From NCBI GenBank assembly GCA_017628205.1, contig JAGBZO010000008.1:1-37867 (forward strand): a stretch of DNA of 37,867 nucleotides. The letters are read 5' to 3'. Shown in pieces: positions 33,099 to 37,867 of this stretch (positions are counted from its first letter, which is position 1; every line of letters begins with the position of its first letter). The notes beneath the pieces are model-generated. The model saw only the letters and a list, made by a program, of their open reading frames with translations, searched no databases and was not told the origin of the DNA. The DNA is from Duodenibacillus sp. GTDB lineage: Bacteria > Pseudomonadota > Gammaproteobacteria > Burkholderiales > Burkholderiaceae_F. The position numbers and the translations under genes are program-made.

Positions 33099-34412
33099 TC
33101 AGTGGCGTTTTTCCTCGCCGATCAAATGTAGGCTGTCGAATTCGCGTTGATTGCGCAAGTGCTTCAAGATGACCAAGCACATGCTGCCGGCAACGAAAAC
33201 GCCGAAAACGATCATGGCCGTTTGGACGGAAAGATCGGCTTTGATCAGCAACGAATAAACGGCGAGCATGACCAGAATCGACAGGTTTTCGTTGAAGTTT
33301 TGTACGGCAATGGAGCGACCGGCACTCATCAGGACATGACCGCGATGCTGCAACAGGGCGTTCATGGGAACGACGAAGAAACCGGCGCAGATACCGACCA
33401 GAACCATAATGACGCAAGCGACCAAAACGCCGTAGGAGATCGTCACGGAGCCGATGGAGAGCGCACCAGAGACCATTGAGCCGTTATAGTGGCTCGTGCA
33501 AGCAACCAGCAGTCCCATGATGACGCCCATCGGCAAAACGTTGAGCGACTTTTTAAGCGGAATAAAGGCTGCGGCGCAAACGGCGCCGATGGCGATGCCA
33601 ATCGAGACGACAGCCTGCAAGATGGCGCCTTGAGACAGATTCATGCCCAAAGCGGCTTCAGCCCACTTCAATACGAGGAACTGCAAAACGGCGCCGGCGC
33701 CCCAGAATAAGGTGGTGACGGACAAAGAAATTTGGCCCAAACGATCCTTCCACAACAGGGAGCAGGAGTGGGCGAAATTCTTGATGCTGGCAATCGGCTC
33801 GAACGTGTGATGCGGATAGCGTGCGCCGGTATCGGGGATGGCCAGATTGACCGCGGCGGCTGCAGCATAAATCAAGACGATGACGGCGATGGCGGCTTCG
33901 GCGTGGTTGTTCACGCCCAAGAAATCCAACAGCCCAAGATTCAAAATGAAATCGGCCACGGCGGGGCTGATCAGAACGCCGCCAAAAACTACACCCAAAA
34001 TAATGGAGACCACGGTCAGGCCTTCGATCCAGCCGTTGGCGATCACGAGTTTTTCAGCGGGCAACAGTTCGGTCAAAATGCCGTATTTGGCCGGCGAATA
34101 AGCGGCGGCGCCGATACCCACAATAGCGTATGACAAGAGCGGATGAGAACCGAAGAGCATCAACAAACAGCCGCCGACTTTGATGGCGTTCGTGATGAAC
34201 ATGACGCGCCCCTTGGGCATGAGATCGGCAAAGATGCCGACCCAGGCGGCCAGTAAAACGTAGCTGATGACGAAAAAGAGTTTCAGAAGCGGGGTCATCC
34301 ATTCCGGTGCGCTCAGCGTCGTGAGCAGAGCGATAGCAGCGATCAACAGCGCGTTGTCTGCCAAAGAGGACAGAAACTGCGCGGCCATAATGGTGTAAAA
34401 GCCTCGTTTCAT
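33099..34412 (-). CDS. lplT: Lysophospholipid transporter LplT
   Basis: Major-facilitator protein of the inner membrane that flips lysophospholipids inward for reacylation. The 437-aa protein has about twelve membrane helices, the family N-terminus (MKRGFYTIMAAQFLSSLADN) and the conserved SPAKYGILTELLP motif after helix 4. The usual partner acyltransferase Aas is neither fused nor adjacent. The ATG at 34412 has no clear Shine-Dalgarno sequence but matches betaproteobacterial LplT starts as remembered. It is divergent from alr-radA, a common betaproteobacterial arrangement. A long bulged hairpin (34507-34553) lies in its probable leader. Confidence 0.93.
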   Translation of the reverse strand: MKRGFYTIMAAQFLSSLADNALLIAAIALLTTLSAPEWMTPLLKLFFVISYVLLAAWVGIFADLMPKGRVMFITNAIKVGGCLLMLFGSHPLLSYAIVGIGAAAYSPAKYGILTELLPAEKLVIANGWIEGLTVVSIILGVVFGGVLISPAVADFILNLGLLDFLGVNNHAEAAIAVIVLIYAAAAAVNLAIPDTGARYPHHTFEPIASIKNFAHSCSLLWKDRLGQISLSVTTLFWGAGAVLQFLVLKWAEAALGMNLSQGAILQAVVSIGIAIGAVCAAAFIPLKKSLNVLPMGVIMGLLVACTSHYNGSMVSGALSIGSVTISYGVLVACVIMVLVGICAGFFVVPMNALLQHRGHVLMSAGRSIAVQNFNENLSILVMLAVYSLLIKADLSVQTAMIVFGVFVAGSMCLVILKHLRNQREFDSLHLIGEEKRH

Positions 34413-34506
34413 AAAGAATTTTTCAAATTTCGAATCAAAAACGGAGCGACGAAAATCGCTCGAACGTAACAGCGACGGATAAATCTGAAGCAGTTTAAAC
34501 GCAAAC

Positions 34507-34553
34507 TACGAGGAAAGAAAATATCGAACCCAAACACATGGTTCGACCTCGTA
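34507..34553. promoter_or_regulatory. Long bulged inverted repeat between lplT and alr
   Basis: TACGAGG (34507-34513) pairs with CCTCGTA (34547-34553), and TCGAACC (34524-34530) pairs with GGTTCGA (34540-34546), giving 14 perfect base pairs. The two right arms are contiguous; the left arms are separated by a 10-nt A-rich bulge, and the loop has 9 nt. No U tract follows on either strand, so it is not a terminator. It would sit in the leader of lplT or upstream of alr. Confidence 0.55.
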
Positions 34554-34650
34554 AAGAAAAACAACACATTTTCAGTCGATCGATGGGGGAAATCGATTCG
34601 ATCGGACGTGCGATTGTGCCGCAATTGGTTTAGGATTAACGTCTACGCTA

Positions 34651-34672
34651 CGGTTGAGCAAATTGTCAACCG
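34651..34672 (+). promoter_or_regulatory. Inverted repeat upstream of alr
   Basis: CGGTTGA (34651-34657) and TCAACCG (34666-34672) are perfect 7-bp arms across 8 nt, ending 28 nt before the alr ATG. It may be an operator or a leader hairpin. No regulator is known. Confidence 0.4.
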
Positions 34673-34700
34673 ATTCTTTGACTCCACAGGTCTTTACGTC

Positions 34701-35792
34701 ATGTCTCGTCCAATTTCCGTCACCATCCATATGAATGCACTTCGTTCGAATCTGGAACGCGTTCGAGTGACGGCCGCCGGACGCGATATTTGGGCGGTTG
34801 TCAAAGCCAATGCCTACGGGCACGGCTTGACCAACGCGGTTCAAGCATTCGAAAAGGCCGAAGGATTGGCCGTATTGGAAGTCGGCGAAGCGATTCGCGC
34901 TAGAACGCTTGGCTGGAAAAAGCGTATTTTGTTGCTCGAAGGCTTCTTCGAGGATGCGGATATCGACAATCTCGAAAAATACGATATCGAAACCGTCATT
35001 CACTCGACGTGGATGATCGACGCGCTCAAGCGTCACGCACCTCACAGCAAGATCAAATGTCACATCAAGATCAATTCGGGGATGAACCGCCTCGGTTTCT
35101 TGAATTTCGAGTGTCCGGAAGTCCATGCCATGCTCGAAAGCATTCCCGGCGTGAGCGTCGTCGGCGTGATGACGCACTTTGCCAATGCCGAACCCACGTA
35201 TCTGGCGGACGGTCCCGCGACCGTTGACAAGCAATTGGCTCGTCTCGGCCGACTCAAGCAGTTGGACGGGGGCGTGTGCCTGGCCAACTCGGCCGCCACG
35301 CTGTTTCGTCCCGAAGTGGGCGGGGATTCCGTTCGTGCAGGGATCGTTTTGTACGGTGCCAGTCCCGACAAGCACATCAGCAATGCGGAACTCGGTATTC
35401 GTCCGGCCATGACCTTTGCAGCCAAAATCATTGCGGTTCAACAAATTGCTCCGGGCGAAGCCGTCGGTTACGGTTCCCGTTGGGTGGCCAAGCGGCCGAG
35501 TCGCATCGCCGTCGTGGCGTGCGGGTATGCCGACGGATACCCGCGTACGATGCCTGACGGAGCTCCCACTTACGTCGAAGGAAAAATTGCCCCCTTGGCG
35601 GGAGCCGTCTCGATGGATATGTTGGCCATTGACGTGACCGACGTTCCCGAAGCCGACATTGGCAGCGTCGTCGAGCTTTGGGGCGAACATATCCTGGTCA
35701 ACGATTTGGCCGATTATTGCGGAACGATCGGCTACGAACTGCTGTGCGCTTTGGCTCCCCGCGTCCCCATCCGAATTAGTGAGAACAACTGA
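34701..35792 (+). CDS. alr: Alanine racemase
   Basis: PLP enzyme that interconverts L- and D-alanine, supplying D-alanine for peptidoglycan. The 363-aa protein has the PLP lysine Lys35 in WAVVKANAYGHG and the catalytic tyrosine Tyr257 in AVGYGSRW, with SMDMLAIDVTD near the C-terminal barrel. ATG 34701 is chosen because MSRPISVTIHMNALRSN is the typical N-terminus; the frame is open to 34608 but that part covers the upstream inverted repeat. radA follows 5 nt after its stop codon. Confidence 0.96.
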   Translation: MSRPISVTIHMNALRSNLERVRVTAAGRDIWAVVKANAYGHGLTNAVQAFEKAEGLAVLEVGEAIRARTLGWKKRILLLEGFFEDADIDNLEKYDIETVIHSTWMIDALKRHAPHSKIKCHIKINSGMNRLGFLNFECPEVHAMLESIPGVSVVGVMTHFANAEPTYLADGPATVDKQLARLGRLKQLDGGVCLANSAATLFRPEVGGDSVRAGIVLYGASPDKHISNAELGIRPAMTFAAKIIAVQQIAPGEAVGYGSRWVAKRPSRIAVVACGYADGYPRTMPDGAPTYVEGKIAPLAGAVSMDMLAIDVTDVPEADIGSVVELWGEHILVNDLADYCGTIGYELLCALAPRVPIRISENN

Positions 35793-35797
35793 CGACC

Positions 35798-37180
35798 ATG
35801 GCTAAGAGCAAAGTCGAATACGTTTGCAGCGATTGCGGCGGTACGAGTGTCAAATGGCAGGGGCGTTGCCCGCACTGCGGACAATGGAACACCATGCAGG
35901 AGTTCAAAGTGCCGACCTCAACCGCATCGCGTTTCGGCTCGGACAAGCACCGCAGCCGCTCGCTGATCGAAGCGTGCGAGGTGGTTGATCTTGCTCAGGT
36001 CGACGCGCAGGAAGTTCCGCGCGTCGTTGTCGGGATCGAGGAGTTTGATCGCGTCATGGGCGGCGGGCTCGTTCCCGGAGGAGTCAGTTTGATCGGCGGC
36101 GATCCCGGTATCGGTAAATCCACATTGCTTTTGCAAGTGATGAGCCGTCTTGTCGCTCAGGGGCGTTCCGCCTTATATGTTTCTGGCGAAGAGTCCGCCG
36201 GCCAAGTGGCGTTGCGCGCCCATCGTCTGGGAATCAATCCTCAGGGGATGCGTTTGATGAGCGAAATCGAACTCGAGAAAATTGAGGCGGCGCTCGTTGC
36301 GCATCGTCCCGAGTTCGTGGTCATCGACTCGATACAAACGCTATTTAGCGGAGAGTTGGACAGTGCTCCGGGCAGCGTCACGCAAGTACGCGAGTGCTCG
36401 TCCCGCTTGACGCGCTTGGCCAAAACAACCGCAACGACGCTGGTTTTTGTCGGTCACGTGACGAAAGAAGGGAATCTGGCCGGCCCGCGCGTTCTCGAAC
36501 ACATCGTCGATACCGTTTTGTACTTCGAGGGAGACACGCATTCCAGTTTCCGTTTGATCCGCGCCTTCAAAAATCGTTTTGGGGCAGTCAACGAATTGGG
36601 CGTTTTCGCCATGACGGATCGCGGGCTCAAAGGCATTTCCAATCCCTCGGCCATCTTCTTGTCGGAGCATCGAGACAATGTTCCCGGCAGCGTCGTGATG
36701 GTCACCCAAGAAGGCACGAGACCGTTATTGGTGGAAGTTCAAGCCTTGGTGGACGGTACGCATTTGCCAAGTCCCAAGCGATTGAGCGTCGGTCTGGAAC
36801 AACAACGTTTGTCTATGCTTTTGGCCGTCTTGCATCGTCATGCGGGCGTGTGCTGTTACGATCAGGACGTCTTTGTCAATGCCGTCGGCGGCGTCAAAAT
36901 TACCGAACCCGCCAGCGACTTGGCCGTGTTGTTGGCCATTGTCAGTTCAATCGGCAATCGTCCTGTGCCGACCGGATTGGTCGTGTTCGGGGAAGTAGGC
37001 TTGGCCGGAGAAATTCGACCGGCGCCAAGAGGACAAGAGCGCTTGAAGGAAGCGGCCAAGTTGGGTTTCTCGAAGGCGATCGTGCCCCGCGCCAATGCGC
37101 CGAAATCTCCCATCGAGGGGCTGGACGTGATTCCCGTCGAGCGTCTGGCCGATGCCATAGCCGCCATTCGCGAAGCCTGA
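35798..37180 (+). CDS. radA: DNA repair protein RadA
   Basis: RecA-like ATPase that processes recombination intermediates and branch-migrates DNA. The 460-aa protein has an N-terminal C4 zinc finger (Cys10, Cys13, Cys24, Cys27), Walker A GGDPGIGKST at 100-109, Walker B near FVVIDSIQTL, the RadA-specific KNRFG motif in RAFKNRFGAVNELGVF, and a C-terminal Lon-like domain with GEVGLAGEIRP. It starts 5 nt after the alr stop codon, so the two are cotranscribed. A hairpin with a T5 tail ends the unit. Confidence 0.97.
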   Translation: MAKSKVEYVCSDCGGTSVKWQGRCPHCGQWNTMQEFKVPTSTASRFGSDKHRSRSLIEACEVVDLAQVDAQEVPRVVVGIEEFDRVMGGGLVPGGVSLIGGDPGIGKSTLLLQVMSRLVAQGRSALYVSGEESAGQVALRAHRLGINPQGMRLMSEIELEKIEAALVAHRPEFVVIDSIQTLFSGELDSAPGSVTQVRECSSRLTRLAKTTATTLVFVGHVTKEGNLAGPRVLEHIVDTVLYFEGDTHSSFRLIRAFKNRFGAVNELGVFAMTDRGLKGISNPSAIFLSEHRDNVPGSVVMVTQEGTRPLLVEVQALVDGTHLPSPKRLSVGLEQQRLSMLLAVLHRHAGVCCYDQDVFVNAVGGVKITEPASDLAVLLAIVSSIGNRPVPTGLVVFGEVGLAGEIRPAPRGQERLKEAAKLGFSKAIVPRANAPKSPIEGLDVIPVERLADAIAAIREA

Positions 37181-37302: not shown

Positions 37303-37330
37303 TTGATCGGATTAGGGCATCTGCTAAAAT
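37303..37330 (+). promoter_or_regulatory. Promoter of the UreE-like gene
   Basis: TTGATC (37303-37308) and TAAAAT (37325-37330) are 16 nt apart, and TGC directly before the -10 makes an extended -10 (TGCTAAAAT). Transcription would start near 37337. In the leader TAGCTTG and CAGGCTA (37350-37366) form a short hairpin before the AAGGAA ribosome-binding site. Confidence 0.65.
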
Positions 37331-37397: not shown

Positions 37398-37867
37398 ATG
37401 AAGATGACCAAGTTGTTGGCCGCGGACTCTCTCCCGGCTCCGATCGTTATGGCTCGTGCTCCCGAAGTTTCGTTGACGTACGAACAGCGCGTGAAGCCGC
37501 CCGCCGTATTTACGGTGGACGGCGTCGAGTATGAGAACGCGGTGGAACTTGAACGCGCTATTGAAGTCGGCGACGCGTTGTTGGATGAAGAGGGCAACTT
37601 CTTCGTTGTTACGGCCGCCACCGACACGATCATGAAGGTCAGCGGCGACATCGACATGATGCAAGAAGCCGTATACGCATTCAGCGCTCGCGGCATTCGC
37701 TTGGCTCCGACCGAAGACGGTTTTGCTCTCATGCCCAACGAACAGTTTAAGGGAATGCTCGAAAACGTCGGTTTGACGGTCACGATGTCCGACGAACCGT
37801 TTGTGCCCGTTCCGTTGCCCACCGGCGGTTGCGGTTGTGGCGGCGGCTGCGGTTGCGGCGGTCACGG
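37398..37867 (+). CDS. UreE-like metallochaperone with Cys/Gly-rich tail (3' end outside window)
   Basis: At least 156 residues; the gene runs off the right edge. The order follows UreE: an N-terminal domain (YEQRVKPPAVFTVDG, then EVGDALLDEEGNFFVV resembling the GGDVLSNEEG region of Klebsiella UreE), and a ferredoxin-like C-terminal domain ending MLENVGLTVTMSDEPFVP, which parallels MLRQFGLTVTFGQLPFEP. The dimer-interface histidine of UreE (NRHVP) is not present in the matching ARGIRLAP, and the HHDH pair is also absent. Instead of a His-rich tail there is GGCGCGGGCGCGGH at 143-156 with Cys145, 147, 151 and 153. It may handle a thiophilic metal or act outside urease; that is inference. ATG 37398 follows AAGGAA (37382-37387). 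It has its own promoter and is separated from radA by a terminator. Confidence 0.75.
   Translation, partial: MKMTKLLAADSLPAPIVMARAPEVSLTYEQRVKPPAVFTVDGVEYENAVELERAIEVGDALLDEEGNFFVVTAATDTIMKVSGDIDMMQEAVYAFSARGIRLAPTEDGFALMPNEQFKGMLENVGLTVTMSDEPFVPVPLPTGGCGCGGGCGCGGH

Follow-up and report, generated by a model that had tools for sequence, protein, structure and literature searches.

A UreE-fold protein with a cysteine- and histidine-rich tail in gut bacteria, a candidate nickel reservoir outside urease

The last gene of the window, that is, of the whole 37,867-nucleotide stretch analyzed here (contig JAGBZO010000008.1 of Duodenibacillus sp., assembly GCA_017628205.1), encodes a protein that combines the fold of the urease accessory protein UreE with a C-terminal tail rich in cysteine (Cys) and histidine (His). 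The gene occupies positions 37398..37867 on the + strand, with an open reading frame (ORF, 37398-37865) that is still open at the window end. It comprises (i) a UreE-like core, residues 1-141 (37398..37820, +), recognized by alignment, profiles, and predicted fold and devoid of the UreE interface histidine, and (ii) the initial 15 residues of the tail, TGGCGCGGGCGCGGH (37821..37867, +), the remainder of which lies past the contig end. Contig G000:C37 ends at position 37867, and the gene is truncated inside its tail; the C-terminal end visible in the window reads GGCGCGGGCGCGGH. The source genome (G000) measures 1.83 Mb in 50 contigs, with a completeness of 85.7%. Carriers of the gene were sought with a profile (A1) over 67 genomes of the family, which gave 33 carriers, the source included, and 34 non-carriers.

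An initial annotation of this DNA had read a UreE-like layout to about residue 140, with the NRHVP motif replaced and the histidine of the HxH site gone, and alignment to Klebsiella UreE (1gmu) bears this out in full. SARGIRLAPTEDG stands at the NRHVP place, with ARGIR opposite the motif, and the window protein has no His along the HHDH stretch of 1gmu, the HxH place. The dimer-interface nickel histidine of UreE (His96 of Klebsiella, His102 of Helicobacter), whose role is described in PMC7055735, is replaced by Gly in 33/33 relatives. Across these relatives, the core contains 0-1 Cys (1 in seven of the 33) and 0-3 His. Structure prediction yields, with high confidence, a 140-residue core with the two-domain UreE fold. 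The profile searches, which the annotation had named as able to place the protein outside UreE, gave a divided answer: all NCBIfam matches are UreE models, but every one is far under its cut-off (best score 49.2 bits vs 221), and the Pfam cut-off is not reached either (UreE_N, 11.7 vs 26.9). At E 0.01, Pfam UreE_C is matched by 2 and UreE_N by 1 of 15 members, while the window protein gives no FKBP match in Pfam at E 1. The closest named relative, with 64% identity, is a protein of Duodenibacillus massiliensis, a species that NCBI places in Sutterellaceae.

The cysteine cluster noticed at the window end is real, but the window covers just the opening stretch, some 15 residues, of a much longer tail. 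All 28 complete copies (of 33) have a Cys/His-rich C-terminal tail, which spans 91-219 aa (median 128.5) and holds 14-38 Cys (median 21) and 26-61 His (median 38.5). The tails are made up of CGCG or CCCG, HHHH, and acidic stretches, and at the two loci examined they are encoded by tandem DNA repeats with 42-base and 36-base units. The idea that thiolates stand in for histidine does not hold as stated, since complete tails contain more His than Cys. For comparison, 11 UreE-type frames from outside the family (that of genome G123 and 10 that have the NRH motif) contain 1-5 Cys. With the Cys content of ten neighbouring genes as background, the probability of finding four Cys among the last 15 residues is ~9e-5; a chance origin of the cluster is irrelevant, however, because relatives carry full Cys/His tails. 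Assemblies break within the tail in 5/33 genomes (G000:C37, G006:C42, G063:C56, G085:C143, and G087:C19), as expected of a tandem repeat.

Profile A1 separates the tailed proteins cleanly, with 33 matches at E <=1.3e-49, nine at 1.6e-12 to 1.8e-7, and none between. NRHV is present in all five of the nine weaker matches that were read (the other four are those of G068, G074, G075, and G076). Carriers are confined to four genera, which we take to be Duodenibacillus (g1, 8/10 genomes), Mesosutterella (g2, 5/5), Parasutterella with Candidatus Aphodousia (g9, 8/9), and Sutterella (g11, 12/12); profile A1 found 0/31 carriers in the remaining 14 genera. The misses inside carrier genera (G001, G004, and G064) are genomes 80-87% complete. 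A search of the order (399 genomes, at most 10 candidates scored per genome) gave 18 matches at 1e-12. Seven are tailed proteins from the same family; of the other 11, 10 have the NRH motif. A single-sequence scan of genome contigs returned no matches, and a separate search with profile A1 returned 14 loci. The sole record from a plasmid search with the protein is an annotated ureE in Mitsuaria, and a literature search for the term "UreE-like" had no match.

The frame is open in 33/33 genomes, with no stop within the matched part. Ratios of nonsynonymous to synonymous substitution rates (dN/dS), obtained from ten gene pairs, are 0-0.155 for the core in the 7 pairs with dS <1.5 and 0.010-0.059 for the tail in the 5 pairs with finite tail dS, values to be read with caution since the tail repeats align loosely. 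Both core and tail thus show purifying selection, and the long Cys/His repeat tail is, to judge from these substitution patterns, kept by selection.

A role outside urease, proposed from the beginning, is supported by the gene content of the carriers. At E 1e-20, the urease gene ureC is found in 0/33 carriers and 10/34 non-carriers. At E 1e-3 (61 genomes), weak partial matches appear in carriers G002 and G007 (24.1 and 20.5 bits against a cut-off of 23; frame lengths, 475 and 490 aa), which are taken for other amidohydrolases. GTPases of the UreG type, assigned from score, length, and place with the PF02492 rows read by eye, are found in 0/33 carriers, whose PF02492 matches are HypB or frames of at least 332 aa; the UreG-type matches come from 12 genomes, all non-carriers (E 6.6e-43 to 1.3e-38, frames 199-459 aa). 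One PF02492 match of putative CobW/COG0523 type (E 2.7e-58 to 5.4e-54) is present in 32/33 carriers, including the three without HypB, and in 28/34 non-carriers. Extra PF02492 matches lie in very long ORFs (555-672 aa) of three Sutterella genomes (G085:C71, G087:C71, and G088:C4).

The [NiFe] hydrogenase large subunit is found at E 1e-20 in 30/33 carriers and 23/34 non-carriers (Fisher p = 0.033, shared ancestry ignored), and HypA and HypB are each found in 30/33 carriers. In the source genome, the hydrogenase locus lies on a different contig from the UreE-like gene. One strand of the locus encodes the small and large subunits, cytochrome b, HyaD, HypC, and a HyaE-like gene; the opposite strand has HybE, a HupK-like gene, hypA, hypB, and hypF. 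Among 30 HypB loci covered, the N-terminus of HypB carries MCxxCGCG and 6-32 His in 18/18 carriers read; that of G026 does not fit the MCxxCGCG pattern used, and HypB is without CxxCGCG and the His stretch in 6/6 non-carriers of genera g5, g6, and g14 (L153, L157, L158, L161, L164, and L174). The genomes with motif-less HypB have hypA and hypB and, except for G013, hydrogenase too. SlyD-type FKBP proteins were searched for in 18 genomes, and the 12 that were read, 9 of them from carriers, contain 0-1 Cys and 3-6 His and so lack a metal tail; their SlyD identity is one that we infer. The last 60 residues of a further 21 FKBP frames contain 0-2 Cys and 0-3 His, and no weak match of the SlyD type was listed in carriers G019, G033, G086, and G087. 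Two ORFs contain FKBP domains two or three times (G000:C26:17173-17781 and G010:C12:209068-210039). In G006, a genome in which none of hydrogenase, HypA, and HypB was found, an ORF with a weak PF00374 match that is presumably HupK-like (L118:7551-8711) adjoins murJ.

Several known systems resemble the tailed proteins in part. UreE itself (Klebsiella 1gmu, Proteus 9zlo, Helicobacter 3tj8) shares the two-domain fold over about 140 residues and, in many members, a metal-rich C-terminal tail; the tailed proteins, in contrast, lack the interface histidine, come from genomes in which no urease or UreG-type gene was found, and have a long tail with a Cys content well beyond that of UreE-type frames. 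SlyD (E. coli, H. pylori) also has a flexible tail rich in Cys, His, Asp, and Glu on a folded domain, and the function suspected for the tailed protein, that of supplying HypB and hydrogenase with nickel, would be one that it has in common with SlyD. The folded domain of SlyD, however, is FKBP rather than UreE, and its tail is shorter. HypB, through its CxxCGC motif and His-rich stretch, represents nickel storage on a hydrogenase maturation factor of the same genomes, but is a GTPase with few Cys and no UreE fold. Hpn and Hpn-2 of Helicobacter and the metallothioneins are likewise low-complexity metal stores, but are bare tails with no 140-residue folded domain; with its predicted core, the tailed protein is not a small protein of this type.

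The protein is best read, tentatively and at just under an even chance, as a UreE-derived scaffold without a urease role, the tail of which would be a cytosolic nickel reservoir and buffer that supplies the [NiFe] uptake hydrogenase by way of HypA/HypB. The folded core would keep dimerizing and dock on a partner, and metal binding would have shifted from the core into the flexible tail, which may hold numerous ions, most likely of Ni(II), with Zn(II) a further possibility. Nothing was found that points to copper, one of the metals suggested in the initial annotation. The reservoir would give its metal to HypA/HypB much as the Cys/His tail of SlyD does in E. coli, and in carriers without hydrogenase it may be a general metal buffer. 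The tail-less state of SlyD agrees with the nickel-reservoir model without being a test of it. According to PMC7055735, hydrogenase maturation requires the SlyD tail, the UreE tail is dispensable for urease while the core site matters, and HypA binds UreE with contact through the C-terminus; these findings make a hand-over to HypA/HypB plausible. The textbook order for urease, with a core site that counts and a tail that does not, seems to have evolved into its reverse here, without urease.

Several observations weigh against this nickel-reservoir reading. The strongest evidence against a hydrogenase-only role is that three carriers, G006 (94% complete), G086 (85%, one contig), and G087 (89%), are without hydrogenase, HypA, and HypB together, and the core dN/dS is 0.051 in the G019/G086 pair despite the hydrogenase-free state of G086. 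Conversely, the 23 non-carriers with hydrogenase do without the UreE-like gene, the presence of which tracks genus. MCxxCGCG and His are also found in HypB of five non-carriers read (G011, G015, G021, G032, and G076), and the tail-less SlyD is common to non-carriers G022 and G034 and hence not special to carriers. In the loci read, the UreE-like gene lies outside hydrogenase, hyp, and urease operons, although one of the neighbourhood surveys picked frames mechanically, on the wrong strand in places, and most neighbours were left unnamed. Service to a different enzyme, as the initial annotation suggested, is plausible given the hydrogenase of 30/33 carriers, but the link to hydrogenase is suggestive only, because of the three carriers without it.

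For the same reason, the main rival is a protein that buffers or detoxifies metals in general (Zn, Cu, Cd, Ni), its UreE scaffold bearing a metallothionein-like tail and serving no client enzyme in particular. Mixed Cys/His repeats would be expected to take many metals, and the gene adjoins radA, apart from any nickel operon; we nevertheless consider this rather unlikely, as a tail attached to a UreE fold, and not a bare one, suggests docking or delivery and a hydrogenase system is present in nearly all carriers. Delivery of metal to a different metalloenzyme, with the CobW/COG0523-type GTPase as intermediary, would suit the carriers without HypB, all of which have that GTPase, but its frequency among non-carriers leaves no specificity, and such a route is improbable. 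The absence of detected urease and UreG-type genes and a tail that varies in length like tandem DNA repeats could also describe a decaying urease relic with neutral repeat expansion. This is very improbable given a frame open in every carrier, purifying selection on core and tail, and at least 14 Cys and at least 26 His in each of the 28 complete tails. Least credible of all is an orthodox UreE serving an undetected urease: the profile hits of the window protein are all UreE, yet neither ureC (E 1e-20) nor a UreG-type GTPase was found in any carrier and the interface His is gone throughout.

Upstream of the gene and on the same strand lies radA (35798..37180, +), a neighbour by synteny only, preceded by lplT (-) and alr (+), the rest of an lplT-alr-radA block (33099..35792). 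A possible own promoter, TTGATC - 16 bases - TAAAAT (37303..37330, +), was picked by eye as a consensus match only. In 30/33 loci, radA shares the strand of the UreE-like gene and lies 24-291 bases upstream of it; the contig of G005 ends 256 bases upstream, the G033 locus is without RadA, and in G008 radA lies on the opposite strand beyond the 3′ end. A tRNA-Leu(tag) gene follows downstream in 13/13 loci scanned. A structured 5′ leader was suspected from inspection by eye and then dropped: Rfam gave only tRNAs over the gathering score (13 loci), and folding z-scores of 29 upstream stretches ranged from +1.7 to -5.4, below -4 in G033 and G007 only.

The radA neighbourhood reaches beyond the family. 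In G123, a member of another family, lplT-alr-radA is followed by a divergent UreE-like gene (L241:9710-10384), the product of which reads GGEHVPL at the nickel motif and contains 39 His but 2 Cys; it is likely an older form of the tailed gene; in Mycetohabitans, a hypothetical gene lies behind radA in the same block. A first tree placed L015 of G039 (branch 3.4) among the tailed rows. Rebuilt without L015, the tree puts the 33 tailed proteins on one side of a branch (support 100/98) and G123, itself a long branch, with them against 12 ordinary UreE (100/99). This suggests an old radA-linked UreE paralogue with a tail that was His-rich first and Cys/His-rich later. A fuller history is possible, if doubtful: this distinct paralogue would have lost its core nickel site and left urease, its Cys/His tail taking on, by analogy, the role of the SlyD tail for [NiFe] hydrogenase in Sutterellaceae, with an expansion that reflects nickel scarcity for H2-consuming gut bacteria.

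The tailed gene is found in common gut genera (Sutterella, Parasutterella, Mesosutterella, and Duodenibacillus), in which a "ureE" match is an unsafe sign of urease. In the rumen under methane suppression, most transcripts of the H2-consuming NiFe-1d hydrogenase are reported to come chiefly from a Duodenibacillus (PMC12613782), and Parasutterella is among inferred hydrogenotrophs (PMC12911397). How these bacteria hold nickel would, because of this hydrogenotrophy, bear on gut H2 disposal.

A second UreE-like protein, His-rich at both ends and without NRHVP, occurs in the urease-bearing G039 (L015 / L040:9678-10250). Its gene adjoins a family M1 peptidase gene, apart from the ordinary ureE.
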